Assembly (NCBI RefSeq): GCF_900109555.1
Contig: NZ_FNZV01000009.1
Span: 91,873 to 155,872, forward strand
Direction: 5' to 3'
Source: Pacificibacter marinus
GTDB lineage: Bacteria; Pseudomonadota; Alphaproteobacteria; Rhodobacterales; Rhodobacteraceae
DNA length: 64,000 bases
A program made the translations under genes and the position numbers. The notes below the pieces were generated by a model. It saw only the letters and a program-made list of their open reading frames with translations. It did no database searches and was not told the DNA's origin. Shown one piece after another: positions 39,161 to 63,763 of the stretch (position 1 is the stretch's first letter; each line of letters opens with the position of its first letter).

Positions 39161-39235
39161 TCCGGCGTAGCTCAGCGGTAGAGCAGTTGACTGTTAATCA
39201 ATTTGTCGTAGGTTCGATCCCTACCGCCGGAGCCA
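39161..39235 (+). tRNA. tRNA-Asn (anticodon GTT)
   Basis: Acceptor TCCGGCG/CGCCGGA, D arm GCTC...GAGC, anticodon stem-loop TTGACTGTTAATCAA with GTT, T arm with GTTCGATCC, discriminator G and an encoded CCA (39233-39235). The integrase gene starts 133 bp downstream in the same direction, so the 3' end of this tRNA is the likely attB core of the island. Confidence 0.95.
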
Positions 39236-41714: not shown

Positions 41715-44700
41715 TTGAGATATGCAATGACAGGACCTCTCGACGCTATCTTGTGCTATTGGCGCACATCTCTTGCAGATGGAGCTCTTGGAGAGGGCAG
41801 TTACAGCCATCGAGATCGAAATCGCTTTATAGAGGTGTCGCCCGAAAGTTTGCGTGATGGACGCTTGCCAACCACCTCAATCAATAAGCTTTTCAAGGAT
41901 CGGCCGCGCGCACAAACAATCGGTGTTCGCTTATGGCCCCTTGTCGTGGCACGGCGCACATCCCACGGTTCTGGTGTCCGAGATGGTCGTCCCGATCTTG
42001 TCGGCCCAGTCGTGACCGAAGCCGTGATCGATCGAGAGGGATGCATTCTTCCTCAGCGCAGCACCATCGCCCGAGATGTTCTGACGCCGCTGCCCTCCGA
42101 TGCATTTTCAATTGGACAGGTCGCAACACTAGACGATTTTCTGACGACTGATCCACTGCATCTGCAAAACCCATATGACTGGGCAGGATATTTGGCCCAC
42201 AGTCGTAAGATGCTCGACGCCGTAACGCAGGGATGGCCAGAGGGCGATGAACATTACCGACCCGCAGGATATGGTTTTTTGGAACCAGCGGAGGATGCCG
42301 CTGTGACTGTGCGCAGCAACCTTGATCTCTACGATAAAGTTCTCACAGACAAGCCCAACACCCCTTTGCTTGAGAATTTTGCAGCCCCACGAAAAACTTC
42401 TGCCGTCGACCCTATGGTTGAACGGGCACTGTCTAGGCGTCTTGGCCATTCGAATCCAGATTTCCCACTGGCGGCACAACAAAGACAAGTTTTGGCTTGG
42501 CTCGATGCAGCACAGACAGGTGAAGTGATCGCGGTCAATGGCCCACCAGGCACAGGCAAGACAACCATGCTCTTGTCGGCTGTGGCGGGGCTTTGGGTAC
42601 GTGCAGCCCTCGAAGGTGGCGCCCCACCTGTGATTGTGGCCGCCTCCTCAAACAATCAGGCGGTCACGAATATCATTGATGCCTTTGGTCAAGACTTTGC
42701 GACAGGCGCAGGACCTTTTGCAGGCCGTTGGCTTCCTGAAGTTGATAGCTACGGAATTTTTCTTCCCGCGAACTCGCGCAGACGGGAGGCCGCAGAAAAA
42801 TATCAAACCGAGGAGTTCCAAACCCGTATGGAAACCGTCGATGTCTTCGAGGCGTCGAAAGTGGCGTGGCTGACCTCGGCCCGTGCTGCGTTCCCAGATA
42901 TAATCGGGGGCATCACAGAGTTCGTTGAGGCCCTACGACAGTCCATAATGGCCTCTGTTAAAAAACTTAACGATGCGGACCTCAGCCTCGAGCGTTTGGT
43001 CGAGGCCACAGTCATGGCTAACCCCCTCGGCCCTGACCCGCAGGCCACAGAGCAACATGCAAAAGCGCTGGTTGAAGAAAAATCTGTGGAAGCTCACGCA
43101 TTGCGCAACTATCGCGCCGCATTTGATCACCACATTGCAGCGGAATCGAGTTTGACTGCAGTCTTCAGCTTTATTCCTTCTGTTGAACGAAAGCGTACCC
43201 TGAGAACACGGATAGCCTTGTCAGGGCTTCAAGGAATTGAAAACCTTAACCGCGTCGAAGACATTGATCGCCATCTTTTAAAACAGACATCAACCGCAGA
43301 CGCAGACCTTGCAACCAGTGAGGATACTCTCAGGAAAATCAAGTCGCTGCGTGCGGCATTCGCCTGTGCCGAAGCGGAAAATCAGGCAATGCTGGAGAGG
43401 TTGGGCGGAGAAGATGGGCTTGAGGATCATCTCGACCTTGGCATGCGGTTCGACATGTTCCGCCTTGCCACCCATTATTGGGAAGGGCGTTGGCTCTTGG
43501 CAATGGAAGAGGATCTTGCTGAGATTGCCGTCTCGGCCAACAAAAGAGGCAAAGCAACACTCGTGCCCCGCTGGCATCGACGTATGATGCTCACGCCTTG
43601 CGCTGTTTCTACATTTGCGACCCTACCGACAAAACTTGCTTACAGCAGGCGCAGTGGTGGGAAATGGGCCAACGAATATCTTTATAATTTCATCGACCTG
43701 TTGATAATAGATGAGGCGGGACAAGTCCTGCCCGAGGTTGCAGGTGCGGCCTTTTCGCTTGCAAAGCGCGCTCTGGTGATCGGAGACACACGACAAATCG
43801 AACCCATCTCATCCCTGCCCCGATCGGTCGACATTGGAAATCTGCGCAAAACGAAATTCTTGTCTGAAACCGAAGGGTTTCAATCGCTAAAGTCCACCGC
43901 CTTTTGCAGCACGTCAGGAAGCGCAATGCGCTTAGCCCAAGCGGCTTGCCAAGTTTCGCCATGGCCGGACCTAGATCAGGGGCTTTGGCTATTTGAGCAT
44001 CGACGCTGCCACGACGAAATCATCAGCTTTAGCAATGCCCTTTGTTACAAAGGGAAACTGCGCCCAATGCGAGGTGCGGTCCCGAGTGATGCCCTTTTGC
44101 CCGCTATGGGCTATGTCCATGTCGACGGGCGTGCGATCCGTTCAGGGAACAGTCGCATCAACCCAACAGAAGCGCAGACGATCGCTGCTTGGATCGCCGA
44201 AAATCGCGAAGCTCTTGAAGAAAAATACAACCGCCCCATCGAACAGATCGTCGGGATTGTCACACCATTTGGTGCGCAAGTCCGCACATTACGTGCGGCC
44301 TGTTCCGCTCAGAAAATCTCAACTTTGGGTCGCGACGGTATGACGATTGGCACAGTCCATGCCCTGCAAGGTGCAGAAAGGCCTGTCGTGATCTTTTCTT
44401 CTGTTTATTCGAAACACGCCGATGGTGGTTTTATCGATGCCTCACCCAGCATGTTGAACGTGACTGTATCACGAGCGAAAGACAGCTTCTTGCTGTTTGG
44501 GGATATGGATCTTTTGGCCAGCGCCACACCTGGCTCTCCGCGTGCGCTGCTGTCCGCGTTTCTGGATCGCCCGGGACGGGATCTCGACTTTGAGCCCATG
44601 CCACGACTTGATCTGCAAGAACGCAACAGCGAGATTCAAAGCCTGCGTGATGCTGTCGAACACGATGCCTTTATTCAAAAAATACTCTCGGGCGAGGGAC

Positions 44701-45098
44701 AAAAATATTTAATCGTAAGCCCTTGGATAAAACTGCGCACAATGAAGCGCACCGGTATCCTAAAGGCTCTGAAAACGGCCACTGAACGTGGCGCAACCAT
44801 CGATATTTATGCCGACCCTCTGCTCAATGCCAGCCTGACAGCAAGTGGTGCAACTCAGATCGACGAAGCTGACAGTGCACTTAGAGATATTGGCGTCTCA
44901 CTTCACCGCCTCGAAAAATTACACAGCAAGATTGTGGCAGTAGATGATGATCTTCTTTGCGTAGGGTCCTTCAACTGGCTCAGCGCAGACCGCGAAGGGC
45001 AATACATGCGCCATGAAACCTCATATGTTTACCGTGGAGCACACGTTGAAGAAGAAATCCGCGTCACTACAGATGACCTAAAGCGGCGGAAAAAATAG
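41715..45098 (+). CDS. mkoC: UPF1-like SF1 helicase fused to a PLD nuclease: MkoC-like (Mokosh type II defence)
   Basis: 1127 residues. An unassigned N-terminal 240 residues precede a split COG1112-type helicase: Walker A NGPPGTGKTTM (about 275), a long helical insert (about 350-620), IDLLIIDEAGQVLPEV (Walker B, about 660), GDTRQIEPISS (motif III) and MLNVTVSRAKDSFLLFGD (motif VI region, about 910). The C-terminus carries one phospholipase-D half-site, LHSKIVAVDDD...GSFNWLS (HxK...GSxN, about 1070). Helicase plus PLD in one chain is the layout described for Mokosh type II, an anti-phage system. Activity here is inferred. It stands alone in a 288-bp-flanked slot and overlaps the convergent KfrA-like gene by 70 bp. 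Confidence 0.82.
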   Translation: MRYAMTGPLDAILCYWRTSLADGALGEGSYSHRDRNRFIEVSPESLRDGRLPTTSINKLFKDRPRAQTIGVRLWPLVVARRTSHGSGVRDGRPDLVGPVVTEAVIDREGCILPQRSTIARDVLTPLPSDAFSIGQVATLDDFLTTDPLHLQNPYDWAGYLAHSRKMLDAVTQGWPEGDEHYRPAGYGFLEPAEDAAVTVRSNLDLYDKVLTDKPNTPLLENFAAPRKTSAVDPMVERALSRRLGHSNPDFPLAAQQRQVLAWLDAAQTGEVIAVNGPPGTGKTTMLLSAVAGLWVRAALEGGAPPVIVAASSNNQAVTNIIDAFGQDFATGAGPFAGRWLPEVDSYGIFLPANSRRREAAEKYQTEEFQTRMETVDVFEASKVAWLTSARAAFPDIIGGITEFVEALRQSIMASVKKLNDADLSLERLVEATVMANPLGPDPQATEQHAKALVEEKSVEAHALRNYRAAFDHHIAAESSLTAVFSFIPSVERKRTLRTRIALSGLQGIENLNRVEDIDRHLLKQTSTADADLATSEDTLRKIKSLRAAFACAEAENQAMLERLGGEDGLEDHLDLGMRFDMFRLATHYWEGRWLLAMEEDLAEIAVSANKRGKATLVPRWHRRMMLTPCAVSTFATLPTKLAYSRRSGGKWANEYLYNFIDLLIIDEAGQVLPEVAGAAFSLAKRALVIGDTRQIEPISSLPRSVDIGNLRKTKFLSETEGFQSLKSTAFCSTSGSAMRLAQAACQVSPWPDLDQGLWLFEHRRCHDEIISFSNALCYKGKLRPMRGAVPSDALLPAMGYVHVDGRAIRSGNSRINPTEAQTIAAWIAENREALEEKYNRPIEQIVGIVTPFGAQVRTLRAACSAQKISTLGRDGMTIGTVHALQGAERPVVIFSSVYSKHADGGFIDASPSMLNVTVSRAKDSFLLFGDMDLLASATPGSPRALLSAFLDRPGRDLDFEPMPRLDLQERNSEIQSLRDAVEHDAFIQKILSGEGQKYLIVSPWIKLRTMKRTGILKALKTATERGATIDIYADPLLNASLTASGATQIDEADSALRDIGVSLHRLEKLHSKIVAVDDDLLCVGSFNWLSADREGQYMRHETSYVYRGAHVEEEIRVTTDDLKRRKK

Positions 45099-49808: not shown

Positions 49809-49895
49809 TTTCAAACACACTCAGTCTTCGAAAGCCGGGCCTTAGCTGCGCCCGACCCTTTGGTGCGATCAATTTCAGGTTACAGAAAGAGTTTC

Positions 49896-50882
49896 ATGTC
49901 CAAATCTAAGCCCGACCTTTCGTCTCAGCGTTCTTCTTGTCAGTCTCAGACCAGCATTCGCTCTGGGGCGCACAGCTACCCCATTCATCGGGGCAAAGTT
50001 CCGCCACACTGGCAAAAAGCAGCACAGTCTAAAGACTTCACAATCATTGCGAGAGTCATCGATCGACTGCATGTCTTGATCCGCTGTCATCACTGTGATG
50101 GGACGCAGCCCAAACGCATAAACGTCGTCCTGAATAACATTCCGGAATGTCCGCATTGCATCCGGAAAGCCAGAACTGCGCAGGCCAAAACCGTGGGCGC
50201 TACATATCTTGGCGTTGATCCAAAGTCTGCGCAAATTTCTGTTATTAAACTGGCCTGCGGGCACACGGTCAAACGGCAGCATCATCGCATGAAAGCCGCA
50301 GCTGAAGGGGGCCACGCCCTGAGCTGCGATATCTGCCGCGAAGCGCGCTATAAACAAGAAGCCTTGCGCTTTGATTGGGAGCTGATCGGCCCTGCCCAAA
50401 GTGGCAAACGCGGATATCGCCAGTACCGCCATAGCTGCGGTCAACTGCAGGATGTCATGATCGGCAACATGCTCTGGGGAGATTGTAAATGTTCAGGCTG
50501 TTGGACTGGACGCACAGCACAGCCATCGTTCATTTATCTCTTCCGGATTGATCTTCCTGATCTCCCCGTCATCAAACTGGGGTACGGCGTACGGCCTCAA
50601 AAACGCCTGCGTCATCAATTGGGCATCGCCATCACAGTTCCAACGGAGATCATTCGCACAGTTCCGATGCCTACGGGCCACCTGGCGCGTCAGGAGGAGG
50701 AGCGCTGTCATCGCACGTTGAAACAGGAGTATCCGGAATGGGCCATCCCGAAAGCCGCTTACGGCGATGCGATCAACACGGCCTCCGAGATTTATGATCC
50801 CGCAGCAGAGCCGACCATTCACGCGATGCTTGATGACATCGAGGACCGGCTTGGGCATAGCAATGAGGACATTCCGGAATGA
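49896..50882 (+). CDS. Zinc-finger protein with C-terminal GIY-YIG-type nuclease domain
   Basis: 328 residues. Four Cys clusters (RCHHCDGT about 62, ECPHCIRK about 85, SCDICRE about 142, then SCG and CKCSGC about 178-200) look like zinc knuckles in a DNA- or RNA-binding region. Residues 210-328 (FIYLFRIDLPDLPVIKLGYG, RPQKRLRHQL, ARQEEERCHRTLK) resemble the GIY-YIG/T5orf172/MUG113 nuclease fold, with YLFRI and KLGYG as the two signature strands, Arg in RLRHQ and Glu in EEE as likely catalytic residues. The stop overlaps the next start by 4 bp (ATGA). It probably cuts nucleic acid; the target is unknown. Confidence 0.78.
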   Translation: MSKSKPDLSSQRSSCQSQTSIRSGAHSYPIHRGKVPPHWQKAAQSKDFTIIARVIDRLHVLIRCHHCDGTQPKRINVVLNNIPECPHCIRKARTAQAKTVGATYLGVDPKSAQISVIKLACGHTVKRQHHRMKAAAEGGHALSCDICREARYKQEALRFDWELIGPAQSGKRGYRQYRHSCGQLQDVMIGNMLWGDCKCSGCWTGRTAQPSFIYLFRIDLPDLPVIKLGYGVRPQKRLRHQLGIAITVPTEIIRTVPMPTGHLARQEEERCHRTLKQEYPEWAIPKAAYGDAINTASEIYDPAAEPTIHAMLDDIEDRLGHSNEDIPE

Positions 50883-53020
50883 GCCAATCTGACGACAGCT
50901 TCTCTCTGCAGTTTCAACGCGATCTTTTACGTGCGCTATACACTTCGCCTCTCTCCACCGGCCCCGCGTTTGAGGTGCCCCTGCCCTTGGCGCCCACTCT
51001 GACCCTCGCCGACTACTCAACCTGCATTGGGCAACAGATCGATCCATGGGCACAGGGCGTCGATCGCCAGCCGCCGCGTCGACGGGTTGAGTTTTCTCTC
51101 AGCTTAATGATCATTGGGGCTCAGTTTTCTGCCGCGTTTCCCAACCGAGCCAATTTGGAGGCGGTTGTGGCGCCGCAAGCCTTGACCTTGATTGAGATTG
51201 GCGATGCCGAGGAACGCAAACGTGTCGCGGGGGTCATGGACCGTATTCTGGCCAAAGTCGGACAGCTGTTTCCGGAATTGCCTCCGCATCGCCACATCAA
51301 GTCCATTGCTTACGGTGATCCCCACGACAGTGTTTCTGACGCGGATCGCACAGCGCGCAGCTTTAATATTGACCTGGGGTTGCAGACCGCCAAGGGGCAA
51401 AGCGCGCTTGTCTATGTGCCCAGTGCGGACTGCCTGCCAAAACCATTTCAACCTCTGGTCACAGGCCATCTTGTATTACCGCCCGTGTCGCGCGATCTTT
51501 TGATCGAAGTGCTGCGGCAAACACATTCTTGCACCGAACAGCTCGCGGAACGAGAAATTCGTGATCGCTTGCCAAAGGATGCGGATCTAGCAGAGATGTC
51601 CTTTCCTGCTTTGCGCGCGGCGCTTCACGCGGACACATCGCTCGCGGTTGCCACGCGCCTGCAAGCTTATGTCCGAAAGGCCCAAGACCTGCGGAAACGC
51701 TCAAGCATCACCCTCGACAGCATGTCCCTCCCTGCCCTCACCCGTGATGCATTCGATCAGCTCCTGGCCGACTTATCGGCGTGGAGAGCCAAAGAGTTGG
51801 ATTGGTCCGAGGTTACTGCGTCGTTCTTGCTCTACGGGCCTCCGGGCAATGGCAAGACCCTGCTGGCAGAGGCATTGTCTGGGACCGCCAATATCCCATT
51901 AATCTCAACAAGCTACGCCGAATGCCAAAAAGCGGGACATCAAGGTGACATGCTGTTGGCCCTCTCGAATGCAGTCGACCATGCCATCCGCCGTGCTCCA
52001 TCGATCTTTTTTATCGACGAACTCGATAGTTTTTCTCGCCGCGACAAACCCAGTCGGAACTCTGACTATATCAAAGGCGTTGTGAACGCCCTGTTGGAAC
52101 ACCTGACACGTCTGGCGAGCACATCTGGCGTTATCATTCTTGGGGCAACAAACTATCCTGAAATGATTGATCCAGCCATCATTCGGCCTGGTCGTTTTGA
52201 TCGAAAGATCGAGTTTGGAAATCCGGATCATTCCGGAATTCTCCGCATTCTTGAAATTGCTATCGGGGGTGACATTTGTACCGGAGAGCTCATCCCGATT
52301 GCAGATCAACTTGTTGGTGTGTCTGCTGCCCAAGTCACGGCCATTGTGCGAGATGCCCGTGGTCGCGCGCGACACCGAGGCGAGACGCTTGATGACACAC
52401 ATCTGCGCGATTCAGCACAGACACTCTGCCCTGCAATGGCGCCAGAATTGGAGCACCGCGTCGCTGTTCATGAAGCCAGCCATGCGGTTGTGGGGCATGC
52501 TCTGGGTGCACTGAGCCTCGAAAAATTACGCATCACCCAGACAGGCGGTGAACTTCTGTCCACACCAAAAGGCCCACTCACGTTGGCATCAGCCAAGGCG
52601 CATCTCGCTGTATTACTCGCAGGGCGTGCCGCGGAAATGCTGTGCTTTGGGGACGTGTCTACCGGCGCGGAAACCGATCTGCGTATGGCAACTGACTTGG
52701 CGTTTAAAATGCGCCATGCTTGGGGATTCTACCCAGACACCCTCCTCCACGCAGAAGAATTGCATCTTCGTATTCCCAGTCATTACCTCGTGTCTGACTT
52801 GAACCGAGAGATTCTGCATGCCGAAGCACGGGCCACAGAGATCATCTCAAATCAACGCGATGTCATTGATCGGGTTGCGCGGGAACTCATCCGTAAGCGG
52901 GAGTTGACGCGCGAGGATTTGTTCGGAATTTTGAATGGGGAGGCGTCCGGACAGGATGCGAAGGTTTCCGTCTCGACAGGGGCATCCTCTGGTACATCAA
53001 GTGCATCGTTTCAGAAATGA
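50879..53020 (+). CDS. Soluble FtsH-like AAA+ ATPase/M41 zinc protease
   Basis: 713 residues without TM segments. An unassigned N-terminal 270 residues are followed by AAA+: Walker A LLYGPPGNGKTLLAEAL (about 320), Walker B SIFFIDELDS (about 376) and FtsH-like second region GATNYPEMIDPAIIRPGRFD. The peptidase has HEASHAVVGHAL (HExxH, about 530) and TGAETDLRMATDLAFKM (third zinc ligand Asp, about 597), both as in FtsH. Loss of the FtsH N-terminal membrane part makes it cytoplasmic. It presumably unfolds and degrades protein targets; the partners are the GIY-YIG and helical proteins of the same operon. Confidence 0.9.
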   Translation: MSQSDDSFSLQFQRDLLRALYTSPLSTGPAFEVPLPLAPTLTLADYSTCIGQQIDPWAQGVDRQPPRRRVEFSLSLMIIGAQFSAAFPNRANLEAVVAPQALTLIEIGDAEERKRVAGVMDRILAKVGQLFPELPPHRHIKSIAYGDPHDSVSDADRTARSFNIDLGLQTAKGQSALVYVPSADCLPKPFQPLVTGHLVLPPVSRDLLIEVLRQTHSCTEQLAEREIRDRLPKDADLAEMSFPALRAALHADTSLAVATRLQAYVRKAQDLRKRSSITLDSMSLPALTRDAFDQLLADLSAWRAKELDWSEVTASFLLYGPPGNGKTLLAEALSGTANIPLISTSYAECQKAGHQGDMLLALSNAVDHAIRRAPSIFFIDELDSFSRRDKPSRNSDYIKGVVNALLEHLTRLASTSGVIILGATNYPEMIDPAIIRPGRFDRKIEFGNPDHSGILRILEIAIGGDICTGELIPIADQLVGVSAAQVTAIVRDARGRARHRGETLDDTHLRDSAQTLCPAMAPELEHRVAVHEASHAVVGHALGALSLEKLRITQTGGELLSTPKGPLTLASAKAHLAVLLAGRAAEMLCFGDVSTGAETDLRMATDLAFKMRHAWGFYPDTLLHAEELHLRIPSHYLVSDLNREILHAEARATEIISNQRDVIDRVARELIRKRELTREDLFGILNGEASGQDAKVSVSTGASSGTSSASFQK

Positions 53021-53315: not shown

Positions 53316-55256
53316 TCACTCCAGCCCTTCAATCTTCCACAGGTTGCGTCCGGCGCGTTTCTTCGACGTGAGGCGCACCCCATTAAGGTTGAGGCCACGC
53401 AGCTTTCCGAGGATCGCGGCAACGCTGCGGTTCGAAAGCGTCGGCTCTGACGTTGATATCTCAAAGACCAAATCCTTGATATCTACCTTTTCAGCAATGA
53501 CGGTGCGAGCTTGATCTGCCTCAAACTCCTCACCCCCAACATGCTTAAAGAGTTTCTCGAGGAACGTTCTATAGATTTCATCATCAACGGCATTGCTCAT
53601 CGCCTCGACAAACAGGTCGAGTGGGTCACAAAGATGAATGTCAGGAACTTCTCTCATCAGGTGCAAAATCGGATCGCGGACAAGACGTGTCCACGTCTCG
53701 AACGATCCCAATGTCCTACCATAATGCGTTTCAGGACGCGCAGCGACGGCGATGCCCAATGCGGCAGCAATAATGTCGGGACGGTGCAGTTTGGCCTCGC
53801 CATGTGGCGTGAACCCGAAGTCAGCCGTGATGTGATTGTCACAGGGCGGGCGCAGGTCGATGAGAAGATAGCGGCGGCTCATGCCGCGCGGAAAGGACAT
53901 GTTCACACCGTTGGTGACCAGAAGCGCCGTATTGCGAATACTGCCGCCTGTCCTGCTTTCTCCAAGAACACGGTCCGACCATACCGGTGTCGTAATGAAC
54001 GACGTCAGCACTTCATTCCTGAACGCGCCGTCCATGTTGTCGTAAACCATCACTGGGTTCTGCTCGAGCAGGTCCGCAAACAAAAGTTTGCGCATTTCTG
54101 ATGAGTTTGACCGCTCCACGGATTTCATCTTGGGCAGGTCTCCCGTCGCAATAATGCCAAGAGCCTGAGCGATGAAACTCTTTCCAACGCCAATTTCAGG
54201 GCTCGTCACGGCGATCATGGGCGCAGTCTCCATCGCAGGGCGCAAAACAGCTGTGAGAACAGCTGCAAGCATGGCGGTGCGCCCCTTGCGGTGGTCTGCA
54301 AAGCGGTACTCGCGAAACGGCTTGAGACAGGTTTTGACAAGCTCTTCGATGCGCTCAGGGTCGAACTCTGTTTCAATTTTTGGAAAGCGAGAGACACCAT
54401 TATTAACGTAGACACCCGTCGCAGCATCATAACCTGCACTTTTGATCAACGTCCCGTCAGGACGCAGCACAGGATGGTACACGACGGCCGAAAGCTTGGG
54501 CAAATGGTCGATAAGGAGTTCATGGATTTGATTGAGTGACCTTGGCGAAAGCTGGACTGACTTTTGTGTCTCAAAACCTTTCGTCTCAACAGCCGCATAC
54601 GGTGCGACAATCCTCGACAATTCATAATCAAGGCGGCTCACAGACAATGGTCGCGATGCACCATTGCTAATGGTGAGCACTGTTTGCCCAGACATGTAAA
54701 ACTTTCCAGCACCAGCTAAAGCCTCCACACAGCGGTCCACCGTTGATGCGGGATCACAACGAGACACTTCCACCGCCACACGCTTGGCCTCGTGTGCGTC
54801 GATGTCCTTTTGCAGGCGATATCTACAAGCACCACTGGAAAAACTATCAAGATGCGGTGCCTTGCCCTTCAGGCGGAGTTTTCCAGAAACCTTTGCCTCC
54901 GAAGAATTAATGTCGATCGGGTCAAGCGCATCCCAACCATCGAACGCGCCCGTGTTCGTCAAAACTTCGGACACGGAGTGATGGCGCAGCGATCCGGTTT
55001 TCGGACAGCGCAAGCTCAGCACAAAAGCCCCCGACAACACTTGATCGTCAATCGCACGCTCCAACGTTTCAATTGCAACCGCCTCTGGCACATCAGGCAT
55101 GTCTTTTGCCCGTGCGGAAATCCATGCATCGCGCATCTTCATTGCAGCGTCTGCCTCGGCGTTGACGGCCTCGTCCATGTTCTGTTGAGCAAGGTCCAAG
55201 GTTTCTTGGTCTACGGTGACCTTTTCGGCGTCGAGAAATTTATCTGAATGTTTCAT
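53316..55256 (-). CDS. Primase-associated helicase-like protein (phage/plasmid type)
   Basis: 646 residues. A P-loop-like segment VTSPEIGVGKSFIAQALGII lies near 357, with a Walker B-like NPVMVYDNMDG about 50 residues later and TALLVTNGVNMSF further on (sensor-1-like Asn). This layout resembles the SF3/DUF927-type helicases that pair with PrimPol primases in integrative elements. The canonical GxxxxGK[ST] is imperfect (PEIGVGKS). The start overlaps the upstream primase stop (ATGA). A 38-bp scrap of this gene occurs at 46010-46047. The N-terminal 300 residues are unassigned. Confidence 0.75.
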   Translation of the reverse strand: MKHSDKFLDAEKVTVDQETLDLAQQNMDEAVNAEADAAMKMRDAWISARAKDMPDVPEAVAIETLERAIDDQVLSGAFVLSLRCPKTGSLRHHSVSEVLTNTGAFDGWDALDPIDINSSEAKVSGKLRLKGKAPHLDSFSSGACRYRLQKDIDAHEAKRVAVEVSRCDPASTVDRCVEALAGAGKFYMSGQTVLTISNGASRPLSVSRLDYELSRIVAPYAAVETKGFETQKSVQLSPRSLNQIHELLIDHLPKLSAVVYHPVLRPDGTLIKSAGYDAATGVYVNNGVSRFPKIETEFDPERIEELVKTCLKPFREYRFADHRKGRTAMLAAVLTAVLRPAMETAPMIAVTSPEIGVGKSFIAQALGIIATGDLPKMKSVERSNSSEMRKLLFADLLEQNPVMVYDNMDGAFRNEVLTSFITTPVWSDRVLGESRTGGSIRNTALLVTNGVNMSFPRGMSRRYLLIDLRPPCDNHITADFGFTPHGEAKLHRPDIIAAALGIAVAARPETHYGRTLGSFETWTRLVRDPILHLMREVPDIHLCDPLDLFVEAMSNAVDDEIYRTFLEKLFKHVGGEEFEADQARTVIAEKVDIKDLVFEISTSEPTLSNRSVAAILGKLRGLNLNGVRLTSKKRAGRNLWKIEGLE

Positions 55257-55996
55257 TCTACGAGCTCCGGCATTCCGCGTTTCTGAATGATACCTTTTCC
55301 TGTGCTGGCACCGGCGGCGAAATCAAGACGTGAGGGCTGATAGACCGACTTGTCAAAAAAGGTCCTCTTGAGGATCTGTCCAGCTTTACTCACCAAAATG
55401 GATCCATGTCCTGACGCCCACGCTCGCTTCCACAGAGCATCCGCGAGTTCAGGGATTTTTCTGGCATCCAAAACAGGCACATAAAGACGCTGTCCGCGCA
55501 GACCACTCTGCTCGCTGCCGTCGTCAGCAAAAATGTAACTACTGGATGAGGGGAACCAAAGCATTGGTACATTTCTCAGCTCGGGAGCGACACTGCGGAC
55601 ACTTGCGATCGCATCTTCTTTGGTCAGCGCCGAGCCCTGTTTTGGCGGATCGATATCAATCATGAAAATACCAGGTCCACTGGACCATTCAAAACAGTCA
55701 TTTGACCGCGCAATGTGCCCCTGACGTTTGTCCTCAGGCATGTTCTCAAGTGCAGACTTCGTCACGACGACTCCTGCAGCAGCGCCCTTCGGAACACCAT
55801 AAACCAGTGCTTCGTTCGAGCGAAGCGATGCCAGAATTTCCGAGAAATCCTCGAGTGTTTCAAGCTGGCGCACGGCATATGTGCCACGCGTCATATAGCC
55901 ACCCGCCTCCGTAATGAGCTCCTTATTCTGGAGCGTGATGTGTTTCGTCAACCGACGCGGCTCATCACTTGCAATCACCGTTAAATTAATCTTCAT
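55253..55996 (-). CDS. Archaeo-eukaryotic-type primase (PrimPol-like) protein
   Basis: 247 residues. The block PGIFMIDIDPPKQG contains the DxD metal-binding motif (Asp114, Asp116) expected of the AEP fold. WFPSSSSYIFADDG and GLRGQRLYVPVLDA follow, matching the second and third conserved strands of plasmid/phage PrimPols. A GGAGAAAT site precedes the ATG. With the downstream helicase-like gene it forms a two-gene replication module, presumably replicating the excised element. The region upstream (55997-56214) is strongly AT-rich with A/T runs and may hold its promoter. Confidence 0.78.
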   Translation of the reverse strand: MKINLTVIASDEPRRLTKHITLQNKELITEAGGYMTRGTYAVRQLETLEDFSEILASLRSNEALVYGVPKGAAAGVVVTKSALENMPEDKRQGHIARSNDCFEWSSGPGIFMIDIDPPKQGSALTKEDAIASVRSVAPELRNVPMLWFPSSSSYIFADDGSEQSGLRGQRLYVPVLDARKIPELADALWKRAWASGHGSILVSKAGQILKRTFFDKSVYQPSRLDFAAGASTGKGIIQKRGMPELVE

Positions 55997-57120: not shown

Positions 57121-58740
57121 GTGCTTGGTTATTTCAGCCGCAAAGGCATCAAGTTTGATCCGAGTCTTCATCGTTTCCCTGACATCAATGTCGATTCTAT
57201 TGCTAAGAATCTGCGACTTGAGAAACGGGGGCGAGAAGATGGAAAGAAAAATATTCCAACCTCCGAACAGACCACGCTTACTCGCGCAGAATTGGATGCG
57301 GTCCAAGAAATCTCTAACCTTCGCAAGGAAGCGCTCAATAATTTTGATGATGAGATGGCTACCTATCGCACCCGAATTTCTGACGCCCAATCCGATAGCA
57401 CCGAGATAAAACTAAAAATTGCTGACGGTGTCTCTAAGCTTCAACAATTGGAGGACCAGGAGGATAACCACCTCGATACCTCCCGTGATCGGGTTCAGGG
57501 TTTCCAGATGAAGCTAAAACACTTCCAGACAAAGAACCAACTTGTTGGCCCTCCTAGAGATAGGACACCATTATATTTTACAGCCTCACTAATTTTGTTT
57601 TTGTTTTTTATTGAAGGTATTATCAATGGACAGTTTTTTGCAGAACGTCATGACCTCGGACTTGTAGGCGGTGTAGGTCAAGCCTTGATGATTTCACTGG
57701 TCAACATCGCAATCGGTTTTCTATCCGGCATCATGACACGTTATAAAAACCTCAAGGGCCTCTTTCATAGGATCATCGGCCTTCTATCGCTGTCACTTTG
57801 GCTCGCAGTTGTATTAGCTTTTAATCTGGCAGTTGCTCATTTTCGTGATGCGCTCGAATATGAAAGCTGGAACGGCGCTTTGTCATCGGCAGTGGCTAAT
57901 ACGCTTACAGCGCCATTAAACATAGGATCCCTTGAATCCTGGATGTTATTTCTAGTCGGGTGTTTCATCACTGGGGTGAGTTTTTTGAAGGGGTATTCGC
58001 AACTTGATCCCGTTCCAGGATATAATAATCTTTGGAATTCTGTGGAAAATTCAATTTCTGAATACGCTGAACTATATGAAGAAGCTGCAGAGACACTGAA
58101 CAATCAATTTCAATCCCAGAAAGATGAATTGCGTCAAGAAGTCGAAGCTCGACGTTCAAATTTACGCTCTGCCGTAGCGGCAGTTAACAGCCGTGGATCC
58201 CTTTCCAACAATCTCACCACATTCTTAAATAGCATCGAAAATTGTGCAAACCAGCTTATCCGAATTTACCGCGAAGCAAATACCGTAGCCCGCAGTGAGC
58301 CTGTTCCAAGCTATTTCAATACGGACCATAAATTTGAGTTTGTTGACTTTTCCGTCTCCAAAGAAGACGGGCTAAAAACGGGTTTTGTCGAAGCTGAGAT
58401 TCATAAGATGGAAGCCCTCATGAACATGGGGGTAGAACGACTGACACGTGCGCAAAAACGTTCTCTCCAAGCATTCTCAACGGTTCAGGACGTAAAAGCA
58501 GGTCGAACTGATAGAAAGTCTCGTGAAAGCAACCAAGAATTGGAAAATCTGCTTTCTGAAATTAATGCCCCCTCTCTTAGGGCATCAAAAAACACTGAAG
58601 TTTTAACGCCAGAGGACACTGAGAAAGAGAAACCAAAGAAGACGCGCAAAACTCCCGCCGCAAAAACTAAAATTACAAAAAAACGAGCCGAGAAAATGCC
58701 TCTATTTGATGACGAATCCGAAGAAAAAGGTGAATTGTGA
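57121..58740 (+). CDS. Four-TM coiled-coil membrane protein, first gene of the Zorya-like operon
   Basis: 539 residues from a GTG start, with AAGAGG 9 bp upstream. Residues 60-145 are charged and helical (AVQEISNLRKEALNNFDDEM). Four TM segments follow: LYFTASLILFLFFIEGIING (about 151), ALMISLVNIAIGFLSGIM, LLSLSLWLAVVLAFNLAVA and WMLFLVGCFITGVSFLKGY (about 280). A second coiled coil (about 305-400) and a Lys-rich tail (EKPKKTRKTPAAKTKITKKR) close the protein. I know no family for it. It is coupled to the vWA-like gene by a TGATG overlap and is probably a structural or sensing partner of the ZorA/ZorB-like pair. Confidence 0.8.
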   Translation: MLGYFSRKGIKFDPSLHRFPDINVDSIAKNLRLEKRGREDGKKNIPTSEQTTLTRAELDAVQEISNLRKEALNNFDDEMATYRTRISDAQSDSTEIKLKIADGVSKLQQLEDQEDNHLDTSRDRVQGFQMKLKHFQTKNQLVGPPRDRTPLYFTASLILFLFFIEGIINGQFFAERHDLGLVGGVGQALMISLVNIAIGFLSGIMTRYKNLKGLFHRIIGLLSLSLWLAVVLAFNLAVAHFRDALEYESWNGALSSAVANTLTAPLNIGSLESWMLFLVGCFITGVSFLKGYSQLDPVPGYNNLWNSVENSISEYAELYEEAAETLNNQFQSQKDELRQEVEARRSNLRSAVAAVNSRGSLSNNLTTFLNSIENCANQLIRIYREANTVARSEPVPSYFNTDHKFEFVDFSVSKEDGLKTGFVEAEIHKMEALMNMGVERLTRAQKRSLQAFSTVQDVKAGRTDRKSRESNQELENLLSEINAPSLRASKNTEVLTPEDTEKEKPKKTRKTPAAKTKITKKRAEKMPLFDDESEEKGEL

Positions 58741-59543
58741 TGGCAAAACGTAGACGCACAAATCGAAACGGCGGGTCTGCGGCACTAAAAATAGGATCAT
58801 TGTTACTAACCATTTTAGCTCTATTATTGGCCAGCGGGATTGTTTGGTTTCTATACTCAGCAAAAACCCAAGACAAAATCGATCAAGTTTCACTTTGTCC
58901 AGAACGAGGCTCTATGGGGAATCTAGTGTTTTTGATTGATCAGACAGATCCCGTTTCGATGACACAACTCACCTTCGCGAAGACAAAAGTAGAACGGATG
59001 ATAAATGATGTGCAAACCGGAACACGTATTAGCATCGGTGTTGTTGCACCGAACTCCTTAGAAAGAGAAAAATCCTTTTTGTCTCTCTGTAAGCCAGCTT
59101 CTGAAGCAAATGCATTAACTCAAAATGTAATGCGTGTGGCTGCGACCTATCGGGAGAACTTTGAGAAGCCGATGGAAACCATTCTCGCGTCACTAATGGT
59201 AGTATCAACTGCAGATAGTTCACCCATCATTGAAAACTTACAAGAGTTGCTGTCACGCGTTCCAGACTTTCTTGCCAATGAGAAACCCACAACACTCGTT
59301 ATCTTTTCAAACCTCGCCCAACACAGTGATACCTTGAGCTTTTACAAAGGCGATGATTGGGATGCCTTCACTGAATCTGGCGCGGTCAATCGTCTTTCAA
59401 GAGCTTTGATGGGTATGGAAGTTTTTCTACTTCAACTTCCAGTGCGAGAAACATTCCAGCCTGACCTTGAGAATTTTTGGGCCCGATATTTCGATGCACA
59501 AGGCGTCACATCTTTGCACTATGAACTCGTGGGAGATTTATGA
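58740..59543 (+). CDS. Membrane-anchored vWA-like protein of the Zorya-like operon
   Basis: 267 residues. A single N-terminal TM segment (IGSLLLTILALLLASGIVWFLY) is followed by a Rossmann-type domain that starts GNLVFLIDQTDPVSMTQLTF, resembling the vWA MIDAS strand D-x-[TS]-x-[ST]. It continues with TRISIGVVAPNS and PTTLVIFSNLAQHSD at the positions of further central strands. The metal-binding set is imperfect, so metal binding is uncertain. The start at 58740 shares one base with the previous stop (TGATG); the stop overlaps the next start. It is likely cytoplasmic-membrane anchored with the domain outside. Confidence 0.75.
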   Translation: MAKRRRTNRNGGSAALKIGSLLLTILALLLASGIVWFLYSAKTQDKIDQVSLCPERGSMGNLVFLIDQTDPVSMTQLTFAKTKVERMINDVQTGTRISIGVVAPNSLEREKSFLSLCKPASEANALTQNVMRVAATYRENFEKPMETILASLMVVSTADSSPIIENLQELLSRVPDFLANEKPTTLVIFSNLAQHSDTLSFYKGDDWDAFTESGAVNRLSRALMGMEVFLLQLPVRETFQPDLENFWARYFDAQGVTSLHYELVGDL

Positions 59544-60844
59544 TGGCGGCTGTTTCACGCAGGCAAACGTTCCGTATTCAAGGACGTGACAATGCAGATA
59601 AGTATCTGTTGGGTACGGTTTTTGTGCTAGGCATATGCGGAAGTCTTATACTGAAAGAAATTAACACACCTGTCTGGCTTCCTGCCCTTTATTCGGGGTT
59701 ATTAATTGTCTTTTACGCCATTATCGTTTCCGTCCTGCCGAGAACACAACTTGAGAGTGACCAGATTGGCGACAACGCTTACTATCTCGGCTTTGTCCTG
59801 ACGCTCACATCGTTAGCACATACACTCTATCAATTGGCTGGTCACTCAGGCCAAACGGAGTTCATCAGCGATGTCATTTCGGGTTTTGGAGTTGCGCTAA
59901 GCTCTACGATTGTCGGTGTTACTGTTCGCGTTGTCTGTCTTCAGTTTCGATTGGATCTTGTCGCACGGGATCGAGAAGCGCGCTTAGCGCTTAACGATGC
60001 AATGCGCTTATTTCGCTCTGAAATCGCAGATGCTATTCGGGGTGTGAGATATTTAGGCGTCGAGATCCGCCAAACATTGAATGAGCACCATACTGAATTA
60101 TCCGACGATCGTGCTAAAATGTCTGAGAAAATTCATGCCGAAATCCTTGAAGCGTTCAATCGTGGCCTTGATCCTATAAGTGGCCGCCTTGGGACTATCA
60201 CTCATGAGATCTTTGAAAATACGGATTCTGCTCTAAAAAGTTCAAAGGATGCCAGAATTGCCGCACAAGTGTCATTGAAGGAGGCATTCGAAGATACGGT
60301 AAGTGATCTGTCTGAAACGGTGACCAAAATTTCAGCTCAGACCCAACAAAGTTTGGCTATGACATCAACACAAATTTCCGATTTGAATGCTACGATCAAA
60401 ACCCATCTCGAAACCGCAATTTTGAACGTTCAAAAGAATAGTAATGGAATAATTGAGGTTGTCCGAGACGCGAACGAAAAAATGCTTGATGCGTCAAAGC
60501 AATCACTCTCTCAAGCATCTATGGCAGTCCTAACCGACAGCGAAAAGCTGACTGTTGCCTTTTCTCTTAACGCTGAAAGGCTCCAAAAAGACTCAGACCG
60601 AACTTCAAAAGCACTCGATACCTTTTCAAATTCCATTGAAGCGCAAGTCAAACGCATCAATGAAATGCCCGATTTCACCCAACGTTTGGAAACTGATCTT
60701 GGGAAACAAATACGAGGCCTTTCTGAAACTATATTAAAGTTGCAAGCCGAAGTCCGTAGCGCAAAAGACACAAGCTCGGCACCTCAAGAACGTCCAATTG
60801 TGTCGGAAGACAAAGTGCCTTCACTCGGCCCTGTGAATACGTGA
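59540..60844 (+). CDS. ZorA-like MotA/TolQ/ExbB-family channel protein with long coiled-coil tail
   Basis: 434 residues. TM segments lie at about 20-38, 45-67, 80-100 and 112-135. The third and fourth include YYLGFVLTLTSLAHTLYQLA and SGFGVALSSTIVGVTVRVV, the latter matching the MotA/TolQ/ExbB helix G.G.AL..T..G. Residues 150-425 form a long coiled coil (EAFEDTVSDLSETVTKISAQ) reaching into the cytoplasm. ZorA of Zorya has exactly this layout: a proton-channel stator with a long intracellular tail. Translation is coupled to the vWA-like gene (ATGA; a second ATG at 59543). It pairs with the ZorB-like gene 4 bp downstream. Confidence 0.85.
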   Translation: MMAAVSRRQTFRIQGRDNADKYLLGTVFVLGICGSLILKEINTPVWLPALYSGLLIVFYAIIVSVLPRTQLESDQIGDNAYYLGFVLTLTSLAHTLYQLAGHSGQTEFISDVISGFGVALSSTIVGVTVRVVCLQFRLDLVARDREARLALNDAMRLFRSEIADAIRGVRYLGVEIRQTLNEHHTELSDDRAKMSEKIHAEILEAFNRGLDPISGRLGTITHEIFENTDSALKSSKDARIAAQVSLKEAFEDTVSDLSETVTKISAQTQQSLAMTSTQISDLNATIKTHLETAILNVQKNSNGIIEVVRDANEKMLDASKQSLSQASMAVLTDSEKLTVAFSLNAERLQKDSDRTSKALDTFSNSIEAQVKRINEMPDFTQRLETDLGKQIRGLSETILKLQAEVRSAKDTSSAPQERPIVSEDKVPSLGPVNT

Positions 60845-60848
60845 TTAA

Positions 60849-62447
60849 ATGAGCCTTCCTCCGCCAAGAGAAGCAAATTACCGACGCGGAACCGTCATGG
60901 GACTGACGGCAGCCGAAGCCTTTATGCTCATATGTTTTATTTTACTTTTACTTCTAAGTTTGTGGATGGAAACAACCCGAGAAGCTACAAAGTTCAATGA
61001 CGAATTCACCCCGGGTCAACGAGCTGCAGCGGTGTTATATCGTGAACAACTGCAAAGTTTTGGACAGAAACTTGAGGATAGTAAAAGCTTCGAGCAGTTG
61101 GTCGTCGCTGCCGGTGGTGAAGGCCGACTGCGCGATGCACTTATTGTATTGCAAGAGTTCTCTGGCATACCCGTTCAAGAGGTTGCGGACAGAATACGCC
61201 TTCTGGACGAGGATGTTGTTAAGCGTATTTCGGAAGCTGCGGTTGAACTCGAACCAAATACAAAATTGAGCTTGGCAGAGTTGACAGAGCTTGAGGCTTT
61301 TCCCGCTATCATAGATGTTGCAAATAATGCGCCAAATGAACTGTTGGATTCGATAAAGAAATTGCGCGAATATCAAGCCACAGGTCTGAGTGCTGAAGAA
61401 ATGCAAGGTTTGCTAGCCTCAATTGAACATCTACGTGACGCTGAATTAATAAGTGGAGAACGGGTTGCCAGTGAAATTCGAAAGCGGGCCGGCAGTCTAA
61501 TCTCGTCGATGGGTGGGGAAATACTCGACAACGGTAACGTTGTGTTTCCGGAAAGCCTTCTATTTGACCCAGGACGATCCAATATTAAACCTGTTTTTGA
61601 AGAGGTTTTATCCAACTTTTGCGTTCCGTGGCTTGAGGTTTTATATGGCTTTGACACATCACTACGAAATATTCAGATTGAGGGTCATGCTTCATCGGAA
61701 TGGAATGGCACTAACACAGATGGTGCATTCCGAAACAACTTGGATTTAAGCCAAGCACGTGCCGCAAACGTATACAAACGTTGCCTTGATTTCGCTGATG
61801 CCACAGAATTTAAGGATTGGGCCAAATCTCGTCTTGCCGCAGTCGGTTATTCTTCAGCTCGGCCCGTCCTCGATACGAATAGTAAAGAAGATCGTGTATT
61901 ATCGCGAAGAGTTGTCTTCGCCGTTGATCTGAAAACACTTGATGACATGGTGATTGAGAATTTCCTCGACGTGGATGCCGAGCATGACGTGCCTATCTTC
62001 GGCGAAGACGTGAAGTCGACAGTGACTGTTGAACCGGAATTTGACCTCCATAGCTTGCCTACACCAAGCCTTTACATCGACCTTGGTTACAAAACGTTGC
62101 AAGGGACTGTCGACAGTGTCACTGATGGAGATACCATTACAGTTGCAGCACAGAAAGTGCGCATTCAAGGTCTTCATGCACCCGAGCTCTCTGATCCGTT
62201 CGGCGAAGATGCGCGACGCTTCATGGAAAATCATTATCTTGACCAACCCATTGAGTGCTTGATGAGTGGTGAGAGGACCTTCGACCGACTTGTAGGTGTC
62301 TGCTTCGTCGATGAGATCGATATTGCAGGAGAGCTTGTGAGGGCAGGACTTGGATTGGATTGCCCATCATTTTCATTTGGTCGTTATGCTTTACTTGAAC
62401 AGAAGTCAGCTCAGAGTTCTATGGAATTGCCAAGTTACTGCCAATAA
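60849..62447 (+). CDS. ZorB-like MotB/OmpA protein fused to a C-terminal staphylococcal nuclease domain
   Basis: 532 residues. A single TM helix (LTAAEAFMLICFILLLLLSL, about 18-40) precedes a helical linker. An OmpA/MotB-like peptidoglycan-binding domain (about 215-355) shows FPESLLFDPGRSNIKP, IQIEGHASSEW, LSQARAANVYKRC and LSRRVVFAV. Residues 415-532 form an SNase-like domain: GTVDSVTDGDTITV (Asp pair as in nuclease D19/D21), VRIQGLHAPEL (Arg35 and Glu43 equivalents) and FDRLVGVCFV (Arg87 equivalent). The Asp40 equivalent is His (LHAPE for VDTPE). The nuclease lies on the far side of the OmpA domain, so it would face the periplasm if topology follows MotB. I know no earlier description of this fusion. 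Confidence 0.85.
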   Translation: MSLPPPREANYRRGTVMGLTAAEAFMLICFILLLLLSLWMETTREATKFNDEFTPGQRAAAVLYREQLQSFGQKLEDSKSFEQLVVAAGGEGRLRDALIVLQEFSGIPVQEVADRIRLLDEDVVKRISEAAVELEPNTKLSLAELTELEAFPAIIDVANNAPNELLDSIKKLREYQATGLSAEEMQGLLASIEHLRDAELISGERVASEIRKRAGSLISSMGGEILDNGNVVFPESLLFDPGRSNIKPVFEEVLSNFCVPWLEVLYGFDTSLRNIQIEGHASSEWNGTNTDGAFRNNLDLSQARAANVYKRCLDFADATEFKDWAKSRLAAVGYSSARPVLDTNSKEDRVLSRRVVFAVDLKTLDDMVIENFLDVDAEHDVPIFGEDVKSTVTVEPEFDLHSLPTPSLYIDLGYKTLQGTVDSVTDGDTITVAAQKVRIQGLHAPELSDPFGEDARRFMENHYLDQPIECLMSGERTFDRLVGVCFVDEIDIAGELVRAGLGLDCPSFSFGRYALLEQKSAQSSMELPSYCQ

Positions 62448-62544
62448 ACTTGATTGAGCTAGGCCGATTTTTCTAAGCCGTTAAACATTTCCTGAGCATT
62501 CTGTAGCATTTTGTTTTTGTGCAATAGCCTCCACGGGGAAAAAA

Positions 62545-62796
62545 ATGTTCAAGTTTGGTGAAGAAATTGGCGAGGAACACGTTAAAGATATAATTCCGGT
62601 CGCAGTCGCAATCGTATCAATCATTATAGGATTTTCTCTAATTGTGTGTGTTTTCATTGCTCGCCACGAGTTAAATGGCGGCCTGTCAGCTTCCGTAATT
62701 TCGTTGGTAGCAATTTCACTATTCTCGATCTCCCCTAGAAGGGCCTTTAAAGGCATCCTTGCAGACACCAGTGATTGCCGTAAGATTTCTCGGTAA
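62545..62796 (+). CDS. Small two-TM membrane protein after the ZorB-like gene
   Basis: 83 residues with two hydrophobic stretches (IIPVAVAIVSIIIGFSLIVCVFI and LSASVISLVAISLFSI) and a basic end (SPRRAFKGIL). CACGGGGAAAAA precedes the ATG, 97 bp after the ZorB-like stop. The same direction suggests it may belong to the operon, but the gap is larger than between the other genes. The function is unknown. Confidence 0.55.
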   Translation: MFKFGEEIGEEHVKDIIPVAVAIVSIIIGFSLIVCVFIARHELNGGLSASVISLVAISLFSISPRRAFKGILADTSDCRKISR

Positions 62797-62923: not shown

Positions 62924-63763
62924 TTAGGCCGCCATCTTGTCCATTGCCTTTCTCTGCAAAAATTCCATCGGGGTGAGGTTGCCCAATGCTGAATGTGGTC
63001 TGCGCCAGTTGTAATCCTCCTGCCATTCTTCAAGCGTGTTGCGGGCATCGCGCAATGTGCCAAACAGCGTTTCGTTGAGACATTCGTCTCGAAGCTTGCC
63101 GTTGAAGCTTTCGATAAAGCCGTTCTGCTGGGGCTTTCCAGGCGCGATGTAATGCCAATCGATACCCGTTTCCTGAACCCATTTGAGGATCGCCATACTG
63201 GTGAACTCAGTGCCGTTGTCTGAAACTATTGTCTTCGGCATGCCTCGTTCTGCGATCACCTTGTCCAGTTCACGAGCAACGCGGTGTCCGGACAGCGATG
63301 TATCAGCAACCAGAACCAAGTTCTCACGACTGAAGTCATCGACGACTGCCAAGATGCGAAACCTGCGCCCGTCTGTCAGCGCGTCTGACACGAAGTCCAA
63401 GCTCCAGCGTTGGTTCGGGCCATCCGGCAGCACCATTGGCTTCCTTGTGCCCAAAGCACGCTTTCTGCCACCTCTGCGGCGCACCTGCAGCTTCTCTTCG
63501 GTATAGATGCGCCTGACTTTCTTGTGGTTCACAGTAAAACCTTCCCGCGTGATCATCACGTGGACACGACGACAACCAAACCGTCGCCGTTCCCTCGAAA
63601 CCCGCTTGATGGCATCCCTTAGCTCGGCATCATCACCCCGTCGCGACAGATACCGCACCGAAGAACGATCAACCTGAAGCACTTCACACGCCCGCCGCTG
63701 ACTGACCTGATGAGCGTCCATCAGATGCGCCACCGCTTTCCGCTTTCCAACGGGCGTCACCAT
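62924..63763 (-). CDS. IS3-family transposase OrfB (DDE integrase core)
   Basis: 279 residues. The HTH_21 region ([20 protein letters not shown]) is followed by [18 protein letters not shown] and the rve core: Asp in SLDFVSDAL, Asp in IVSDNGTEF and Glu in [17 protein letters not shown], so the DDE triad is intact. It ends [15 protein letters not shown], typical of IS407-type OrfB. It overlaps orfA by 7 bp in another frame, as expected for production of an OrfAB fusion by programmed frameshifting. Confidence 0.95.

Follow-up and report, generated by a model that had tools for sequence, protein, structure and literature searches.

A four-gene Zorya-like stator operon with an exchangeable, predicted periplasmic nuclease head as a candidate motor-based barrier to foreign DNA

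Zorya defense systems are thought to sense displacement of peptidoglycan through ZorB, to open a channel and, by way of the ZorA tail, to bring in a nuclease from the cytoplasm (PMC11890865, PMC12904381). SNIPE (PMC13190303) is a membrane nuclease with DUF4041 and GIY-YIG domains that works on the cytoplasmic side and has no motor. Here we describe an operon of four genes, A to D, from Pacificibacter marinus (contig NZ_FNZV01000009.1, positions 91,873 to 155,872), which combines a Zorya-like stator pair with two additional membrane proteins and an SNase nuclease domain that is predicted to lie in the periplasm. The whole stretch of 64,000 nucleotides that was analyzed is referred to as the window, and coordinates are given within it unless another locus is named. 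We interpret the operon as a Zorya-like, motor-based barrier in which the SNase on D, predicted to be periplasmic, probably cuts phage or other foreign DNA at entry, a reading to which we give an even chance of being correct.

The operon lies on the plus strand and is tightly packed: A and B overlap by 4 base pairs (bp), B and C overlap by 4 bp, and a gap of 4 bp separates C from D. Gene A (57121-58740) encodes a protein of 539 amino acids (aa) of no known family, with long coiled coils, four transmembrane (TM) helices and a Lys-rich C-terminal tail. The product of gene B (58737-59543; 268 aa) has a single N-terminal TM helix followed by a vWA-fold domain and is predicted to be periplasmic. 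Gene C (59540-60844; 434 aa) encodes a channel subunit resembling MotA, TolQ, ExbB and ZorA, with a long, presumably cytoplasmic coiled-coil tail. Gene D (60849-62447; 532 aa) encodes a MotB/ZorB-like protein consisting of a TM helix (residues 18-36; 60900-60956), a linker, an OmpA-like peptidoglycan-binding domain (residues 238-350; 61560-61898) and a C-terminal SNase domain (about residues 415-532; 62091-62444), the Pfam match to the latter covering residues 436-501. Hydropathy analysis gave the TM segments stated for A, B and D, and three clear regions in C. A first-pass annotation made from the letters alone had described four tightly coupled genes with a small open reading frame (ORF) behind them, encoding a Zorya-like stator pair, two extra membrane proteins and, in B, a vWA-like domain. 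The ORFs and overlaps were confirmed, the stator pair was recovered by Pfam (MotA_ExbB, OmpA) and by PADLOC, which names D as ZorB2, and the predicted structure of B adopts a vWA fold. The small hydrophobic ORF after D (62545-62796, plus strand, 83 aa) is of uncertain role; ORFs of 82-84 aa occur directly after D elsewhere in the same clade (L002, 11755-12009; L003, 6364-6612), matching in size and position, and no sequence similarity was found among the three.

Both stator domains of the window pass their Pfam cut-offs, which upholds the proposed MotA/MotB character of C and D at the level of sequence alone: MotA_ExbB (PF01618) matches residues 75-136 of C with 24.2 bits (cut-off 22.9), and OmpA (PF00691) matches D with 32.5 bits (cut-off 27.2). 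The PADLOC match of D to ZorB2 has an E-value of 4.5e-31, and the OmpA part of D aligns to type II ZorB (8vvi) with an E-value of 1.5e-29. C is weakly ZorA-like, its best match (3.4e-5, to a ZorA3 model) falling on the coiled coil. By NCBIfam, C and D remain far below the curated Zorya cut-offs, with 102.9 bits against ZorB2 for D (cut-off 400), 14.3 bits of the 190 required for ZorA_1 and 9.4 of 700 for ZorA2. Across 60 sequences, the TM3/TM4 core of C has invariant T88 and T123, while S122 is Ser in 58 and Thr in two. Glu23 in the helix of D was found in 44 of the 44 rows of alignment A1 with a letter at that position; the count is taken from this alignment, since the search used to find D required a Glu-containing TM motif and missed one locus, L012, that has all four genes. 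In Zorya, the equivalent ZorB residue is Asp (D24 in type I, D21 in type II), packed against a Ser/Thr ring (PMC11890865). From these residues we infer that C and D may form a functional, ion-driven stator whose acidic residue differs from that of Zorya.

The same domains also suit a different explanation. MotAB, TolQR-Pal and ExbBD motors share with C and D the MotA_ExbB and OmpA domains and the conserved Thr/Ser in TM3 and TM4, and these generic matches would suit an envelope machine of the Tol-Pal or MotAB kind, dedicated to outer membrane or peptidoglycan maintenance or to DNA scavenging rather than to defense, whose SNase degrades extracellular DNA for nutrients or uptake. SNase genes are indeed present in 43 of 61 sampled genomes of the family. 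However, the best flagellar MotB/MotS or Pal-like NCBIfam model reaches only 45.4 bits on D, well under the 102.9 bits for ZorB2, and the operon, as described below, is patchily distributed. These motors are not known to include A, B or a nuclease head. We regard an envelope role of this kind as improbable.

A and B set the operon apart from the known motors and from Zorya. Neither matched any PADLOC (2023) model or exceeded a Pfam cut-off; in NCBIfam (2026), B had no match and A sub-threshold matches only. No catalytic domain is recognizable in A by Pfam, NCBIfam or PADLOC, and its predicted model gave no significant Foldseek match (best E 0.035). In B, the predicted vWA fold does not contain DxSxS, the canonical motif of the metal-ion-dependent adhesion site (MIDAS); the equivalent stretch reads D-x-T-D, with D68, T70 and D71 invariant in the alignment. 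Two cysteines of B (Cys54 and Cys118) are invariant in 31 of 31 sequences. Three of 117 B homologs (P0233-P0235; 422-423 aa) have an OmpA domain with a GHTD motif inserted in the vWA domain, and B should therefore sit on the peptidoglycan side of the membrane and is probably periplasmic. One of these homologs, P0233, is listed on 43 contigs.

Compared with Zorya I and II (ZorCD or ZorE), the operon shares adjacent MotA-like and MotB-like genes, a ZorB-like OmpA domain, a long tail on the MotA-like subunit, a patchy accessory distribution and a coupling to nucleases. It differs from them in having Glu rather than Asp in the D helix, in the extra membrane genes A and B, and in a nuclease that is either joined to the periplasmic end or encoded next to it, whereas Zorya effectors are cytoplasmic. 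In line with the first-pass annotation, no ZorC-G was found: PADLOC matched none among the 17 window proteins scanned, which are part of the window's ORFs. Zorya III likewise pairs a stator with two extra proteins, and its ZorA3 model is the best PADLOC match of C, through the coiled coil; however, A and B match no PADLOC model, and ZorF and ZorG are DUF3348 and DUF2894 proteins (PMC11890865). SNIPE has in common with the operon a membrane-anchored nuclease cutting DNA during injection, as shown for SNIPE and proposed here, but its nuclease is on the cytoplasmic side and that of D is predicted to be periplasmic; DUF4041 and GIY-YIG were not found in A-D by Pfam. We have filed the operon as a motor-based defense variant and not as a member of Zorya I-III.

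The arrangement is conserved well beyond P. marinus. Loci were collected by scanning bacterial genomes with an alignment of D, which gave 56 loci, and by adding plasmid loci and loci reached through A. Local hidden Markov model and phmmer searches over 64 sequences, including the window itself and repeats, returned 42 ORFs matching A, 35 matching B and 37 matching C. Thirteen loci whose B DNA had more than 30% of its 20-mers in common with a preceding locus were dropped (L091, L095, L098, L101, L102, L103, L105, L109, L111, L113, L114, L116 and L119). In 59 non-redundant loci outside the window, B and D are present with C between them, in the order seen in the window. A was matched in these loci except L040, where B starts at the edge of the stretch examined, and in L043 the match is partial. 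Recurrence in these 59 non-redundant loci puts the arrangement beyond chance; the four genes are a real conserved operon, and their co-occurrence in a fixed order, which had been suggested as a check on the first prediction, is strong. In Pseudooceanicola marinus (L035, 5130-6254), D is split over two ORFs by a frameshift or sequencing error.

By record title, the hosts are mainly Rhodobacterales, together with Halomonas, Vreelandella, an Oceanospirillaceae metagenome-assembled genome, Hyphomonadaceae and Rhodospirillaceae, and plasmid copies occur in Rhizobium, Sinorhizobium, Paracoccus and Tistrella, such that the operon is found on both chromosomes and plasmids. Overall, the carriers are alphaproteobacteria with a small number of gammaproteobacteria. 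With the window's own genome included in each count, gene A was present in one of 61 close relatives (that genome alone), in 14 of 390 genomes sampled from the order and in 15 of 385 sampled from the class; the operon is therefore accessory. The flanks, by inspection, are mostly unrelated between loci, and no fifth recurring gene was apparent in those of 42 loci, with the exception of Jannaschia, whose species share neighbors, which points to vertical keeping there. The homologs are thus patchy and not mainly in fixed loci. This distribution bears on the envelope-maintenance explanation: the retention of the operon among shared neighbors in Jannaschia species would agree with it, but its rarity in the order and class, its carriage on plasmids of four genera and its mostly unrelated flanks argue against it.

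Plasmid carriage also raises the possibility that the operon is a barrier to other DNA, arriving by conjugation, transformation or gene transfer agents, rather than to phages. Gene transfer agents are common in Rhodobacterales, a nonspecific periplasmic nuclease would hit any entering DNA, and the operon is plasmid-borne in many hosts. Nevertheless, half of the 22 B-bearing plasmids (11) are themselves typed conjugative, and we consider a barrier of this sort very unlikely.

The nuclease head of D is exchangeable. Among the 59 loci, an SNase domain is fused to D in 21 and an HNH domain in four, a separate SNase gene lies within 2 kb in 11, and no nuclease was detected in 23; the last class includes L035, with its broken D, and L056, where D is cut by the contig end (both omitted from the tree described below), and separate SNase ORFs shorter than 120 aa were not counted. 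The HNH head is of the GmrSD_C/DUF1524 type and replaces the SNase at the end of D in L030, L033, L104 and L106; Pfam GmrSD_C matches one member of A1, P0103, with an E-value of 3.9e-9. The fused domains behind the SNase profile came from 13 of these loci plus the window, and L030, L033 and P0103 supplied the HNH profile, so that all of these match by construction. Pfam alone found SNase in 16 and GmrSD_C in one of the 45 D sequences of A1, and among 120 listed database homologs of D, the SNase profile matched 51 and the HNH profile one. Separate SNases are concentrated near the operon, with 11 in 215 kb of near flank versus one in 510 kb of farther flank (binomial p 1.4e-5), a comparison that is independent of finding the fused copies. 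A tree of 58 D cores requires at least 16 switches between fused and unfused and 21 changes of the four-state label, compared with a mean of 28.3 and a minimum of 21 for shuffled labels, and the sister loci L026 (fused) and L038 (separate) show interconversion. In Rhizobium plasmid pRL11, the separate gene directly adjoins the end of D and runs on the opposite strand; in a plasmid of R. leguminosarum TA1, the record annotation places it 36 bp upstream of A in the same orientation. In L118, a locus otherwise scored as lacking a nuclease, a 78-aa SNase-like fragment (7684-7920) is located just upstream of A.

Within D, the SNase is C-terminal to the OmpA domain, and the N-terminus carries RRG before the one TM helix. 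Given a MotB/ZorB-type topology, with a cytoplasmic N-terminus, the SNase is predicted to lie in the periplasm because it comes after the peptidoglycan-binding domain. Several features fit this placement, namely the signal-like hydrophobic starts of the separate SNases near the operon (10 of 11 by eye, with L015 unclear and L034 weak), the cysteine pair common to fused and separate SNases (invariant in 11 of 11 aligned), the cysteine pair of B and the OmpA insert in some of its homologs. The window domain scores 22.9 bits against SNase (PF00565; cut-off 21.0) and keeps the DGD, Arg, Glu and Arg of the active site, which are invariant in 11 aligned members; the SNase profile also finds staphylococcal nuclease (8.1e-13). 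Secreted thermonucleases thus share with the D head the same domain, its active-site pattern and the cysteine pair of the fused and stand-alone forms. They differ in that the D head is tethered to a peptidoglycan-binding stator subunit, and that GIDAPE has become GLHAPE in the window's subfamily. On these residues, we read the window SNase as probably active, perhaps with altered metal use.

In the mechanism that we propose for a motor-based barrier, C and D would assemble as a MotAB/ZorAB-like ion-driven complex, in which ions might pass along Glu23 in the D helix and the ring of invariant Thr/Ser residues in C. Once the envelope is disturbed by a phage tail or a DNA-transfer machine, the OmpA domain of D would grip peptidoglycan and the channel would open, and this opening would position or unleash the tethered nuclease at the entry site. 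The periplasmic vWA protein B and the membrane coiled-coil protein A may serve as a sensor or scaffold, linking damage to the envelope with the motor. Where D is short, an exported stand-alone SNase may be captured by B or D, and in other loci the HNH head would take the place of the SNase. DNA cleavage confined to the periplasm would leave the chromosome untouched. The first-pass annotation had supposed that the nuclease in the ZorB-like protein replaces the Zorya effector; the nuclease is present, but with its predicted periplasmic location it cannot simply replace cytoplasmic effectors, and none was detected in the 23 loci noted above.

Those 23 loci also lend themselves to another scheme, in which the long tails of C and A relay the signal of a Zorya-type defense into the cytoplasm, the SNase or HNH head is a secondary or self-contained accessory, and the effector resides in A or acts in trans. 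The long coiled coils and Lys-rich tail of A and the location of the weak ZorA matches of C in its tail are compatible with such signaling, and Zorya I and II both require the ZorA tail (PMC11890865). Conversely, A has neither a recognizable catalytic domain nor a significant Foldseek match, no recurring fifth gene accompanies the operon in the 42 inspected loci outside Jannaschia, and the repeated acquisition of nuclease heads argues that the heads matter. Signaling through the tails therefore appears unlikely to us.

Several observations weigh against a motor-aimed periplasmic nuclease. With none detected in 23 of 59 loci, the nuclease is either not obligatory or acts from elsewhere, and of four near-copies of L090 among the dropped duplicates, L095 and L098 keep the adjacent SNase while none was found in L101 and L102. 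At the position of the second acidic metal ligand (D40 of staphylococcal nuclease), the window, L002 and L007 have His (GLHAPE), the other aligned rows having Asp (GIDAPE), and activity may be altered or lost. The topology of D is drawn by analogy with MotB/ZorB and from features judged by eye, and C is divergent, with PF01618 found in 13 of 36 members at E<=0.01. The Jannaschia locus keeps the same neighbors between species, no copy of B turned up in the 50,697 phage records searched, many flanks are metabolic, and support from defense context is only moderate. Lastly, divergent A-B pairs without detected C or D occur in L115 and L124-L127, and A-B may have another role; the D search, with its Glu-containing TM motif, found no D in L115, L121 or L124-L127.

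Two side observations concern these same loci. The A-B pairs of L125 and L127 adjoin housekeeping-like genes, and the start of B in L127 resembles a signal peptide by eye. The near-identical Rhizobium operons of L101 and L102 on the one hand and L090 on the other (pRL11-type) differ in the adjacent SNase, suggesting recent nuclease loss or gain.

To evaluate the genomic context, 115 of 197 flank proteins were compared with PADLOC and matched 86 families at E<=1e-10. Among the 25 commonest flank families listed were HEC-05 (2e-187), PD-Lambda-1, a type II restriction enzyme, AbiEii, Cas1, Cas6 and an RT-associated helicase; ZorC-G were not among these 25. Control proteins from elsewhere in 15 genomes (115 of 200) matched 11 families, the best at 5.6e-37. 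Counting non-helicase names with E<1e-50 once each, flanks gave 6/115 and controls 0/115 (Fisher p 0.015), a tally of families and not of proteins. L007 lies near a Mu-like prophage gene, and in a Sinorhizobium fredii plasmid copy (L093, 12709-14942) genes for a thermonuclease and a DUF4041 protein lie behind the operon. The proposed defense location is thus borne out by some defense-gene neighbors and lends moderate support, whereas anti-phage activity itself is what we infer.

In the window, the operon lies in an island-like region, as the first-pass annotation had suggested. A tRNA-Asn (39161-39235) is followed by an integrase-like ORF (39369-41426; 685 aa; PHROG integrase E 1.9e-12) and beside these by a Mokosh-like gene (41715-45098), which matches MkoC with 1194 bits in PADLOC. 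An integrase-core ORF of insertion-sequence type (62924-63763) adjoins the operon, which is near the contig end, base 155,872, where the window also stops. Between these landmarks, a two-gene unit (49860-53020) encodes a 340-aa protein with an endonuclease-like PHROG match and an AAA/peptidase M41 protein with an IetA match (8e-25) in its ATPase part, and the unit may be a further defense or proteolysis system. Two minus-strand ORFs (53316-55996) match primase-type or related phage families (phrog_16593, E 2e-53; phrog_29234, E 6e-35) and are probably part of a mobile element. Together, the tRNA-Asn and the integrase-like, MkoC, IetA-like, primase-like and insertion-sequence ORFs support the designation of an island.

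No description of a nuclease-headed ZorB or of such an A/B pair was found in the accessible parts of the open-license PMC literature on Zorya, SNIPE and motors. More tentatively, and with somewhat less than even confidence, we suggest that the operon represents a new class of motor-driven immunity, in which an ion-powered stator that grips peptidoglycan would carry an exchangeable periplasmic SNase or HNH head that destroys DNA before it crosses the inner membrane, with vWA and coiled-coil proteins as the sensor. The membrane-linked, DNA-cutting defenses considered here, Zorya and SNIPE, work from the cytoplasmic side, where the cell's own chromosome has to be spared; if our interpretation is true, a motor-tethered periplasmic nuclease would solve the problem of self and non-self by compartment alone. 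The split, fused and swapped heads make it testable whether a ZorAB-type motor can aim an effector on the outer side of the inner membrane.

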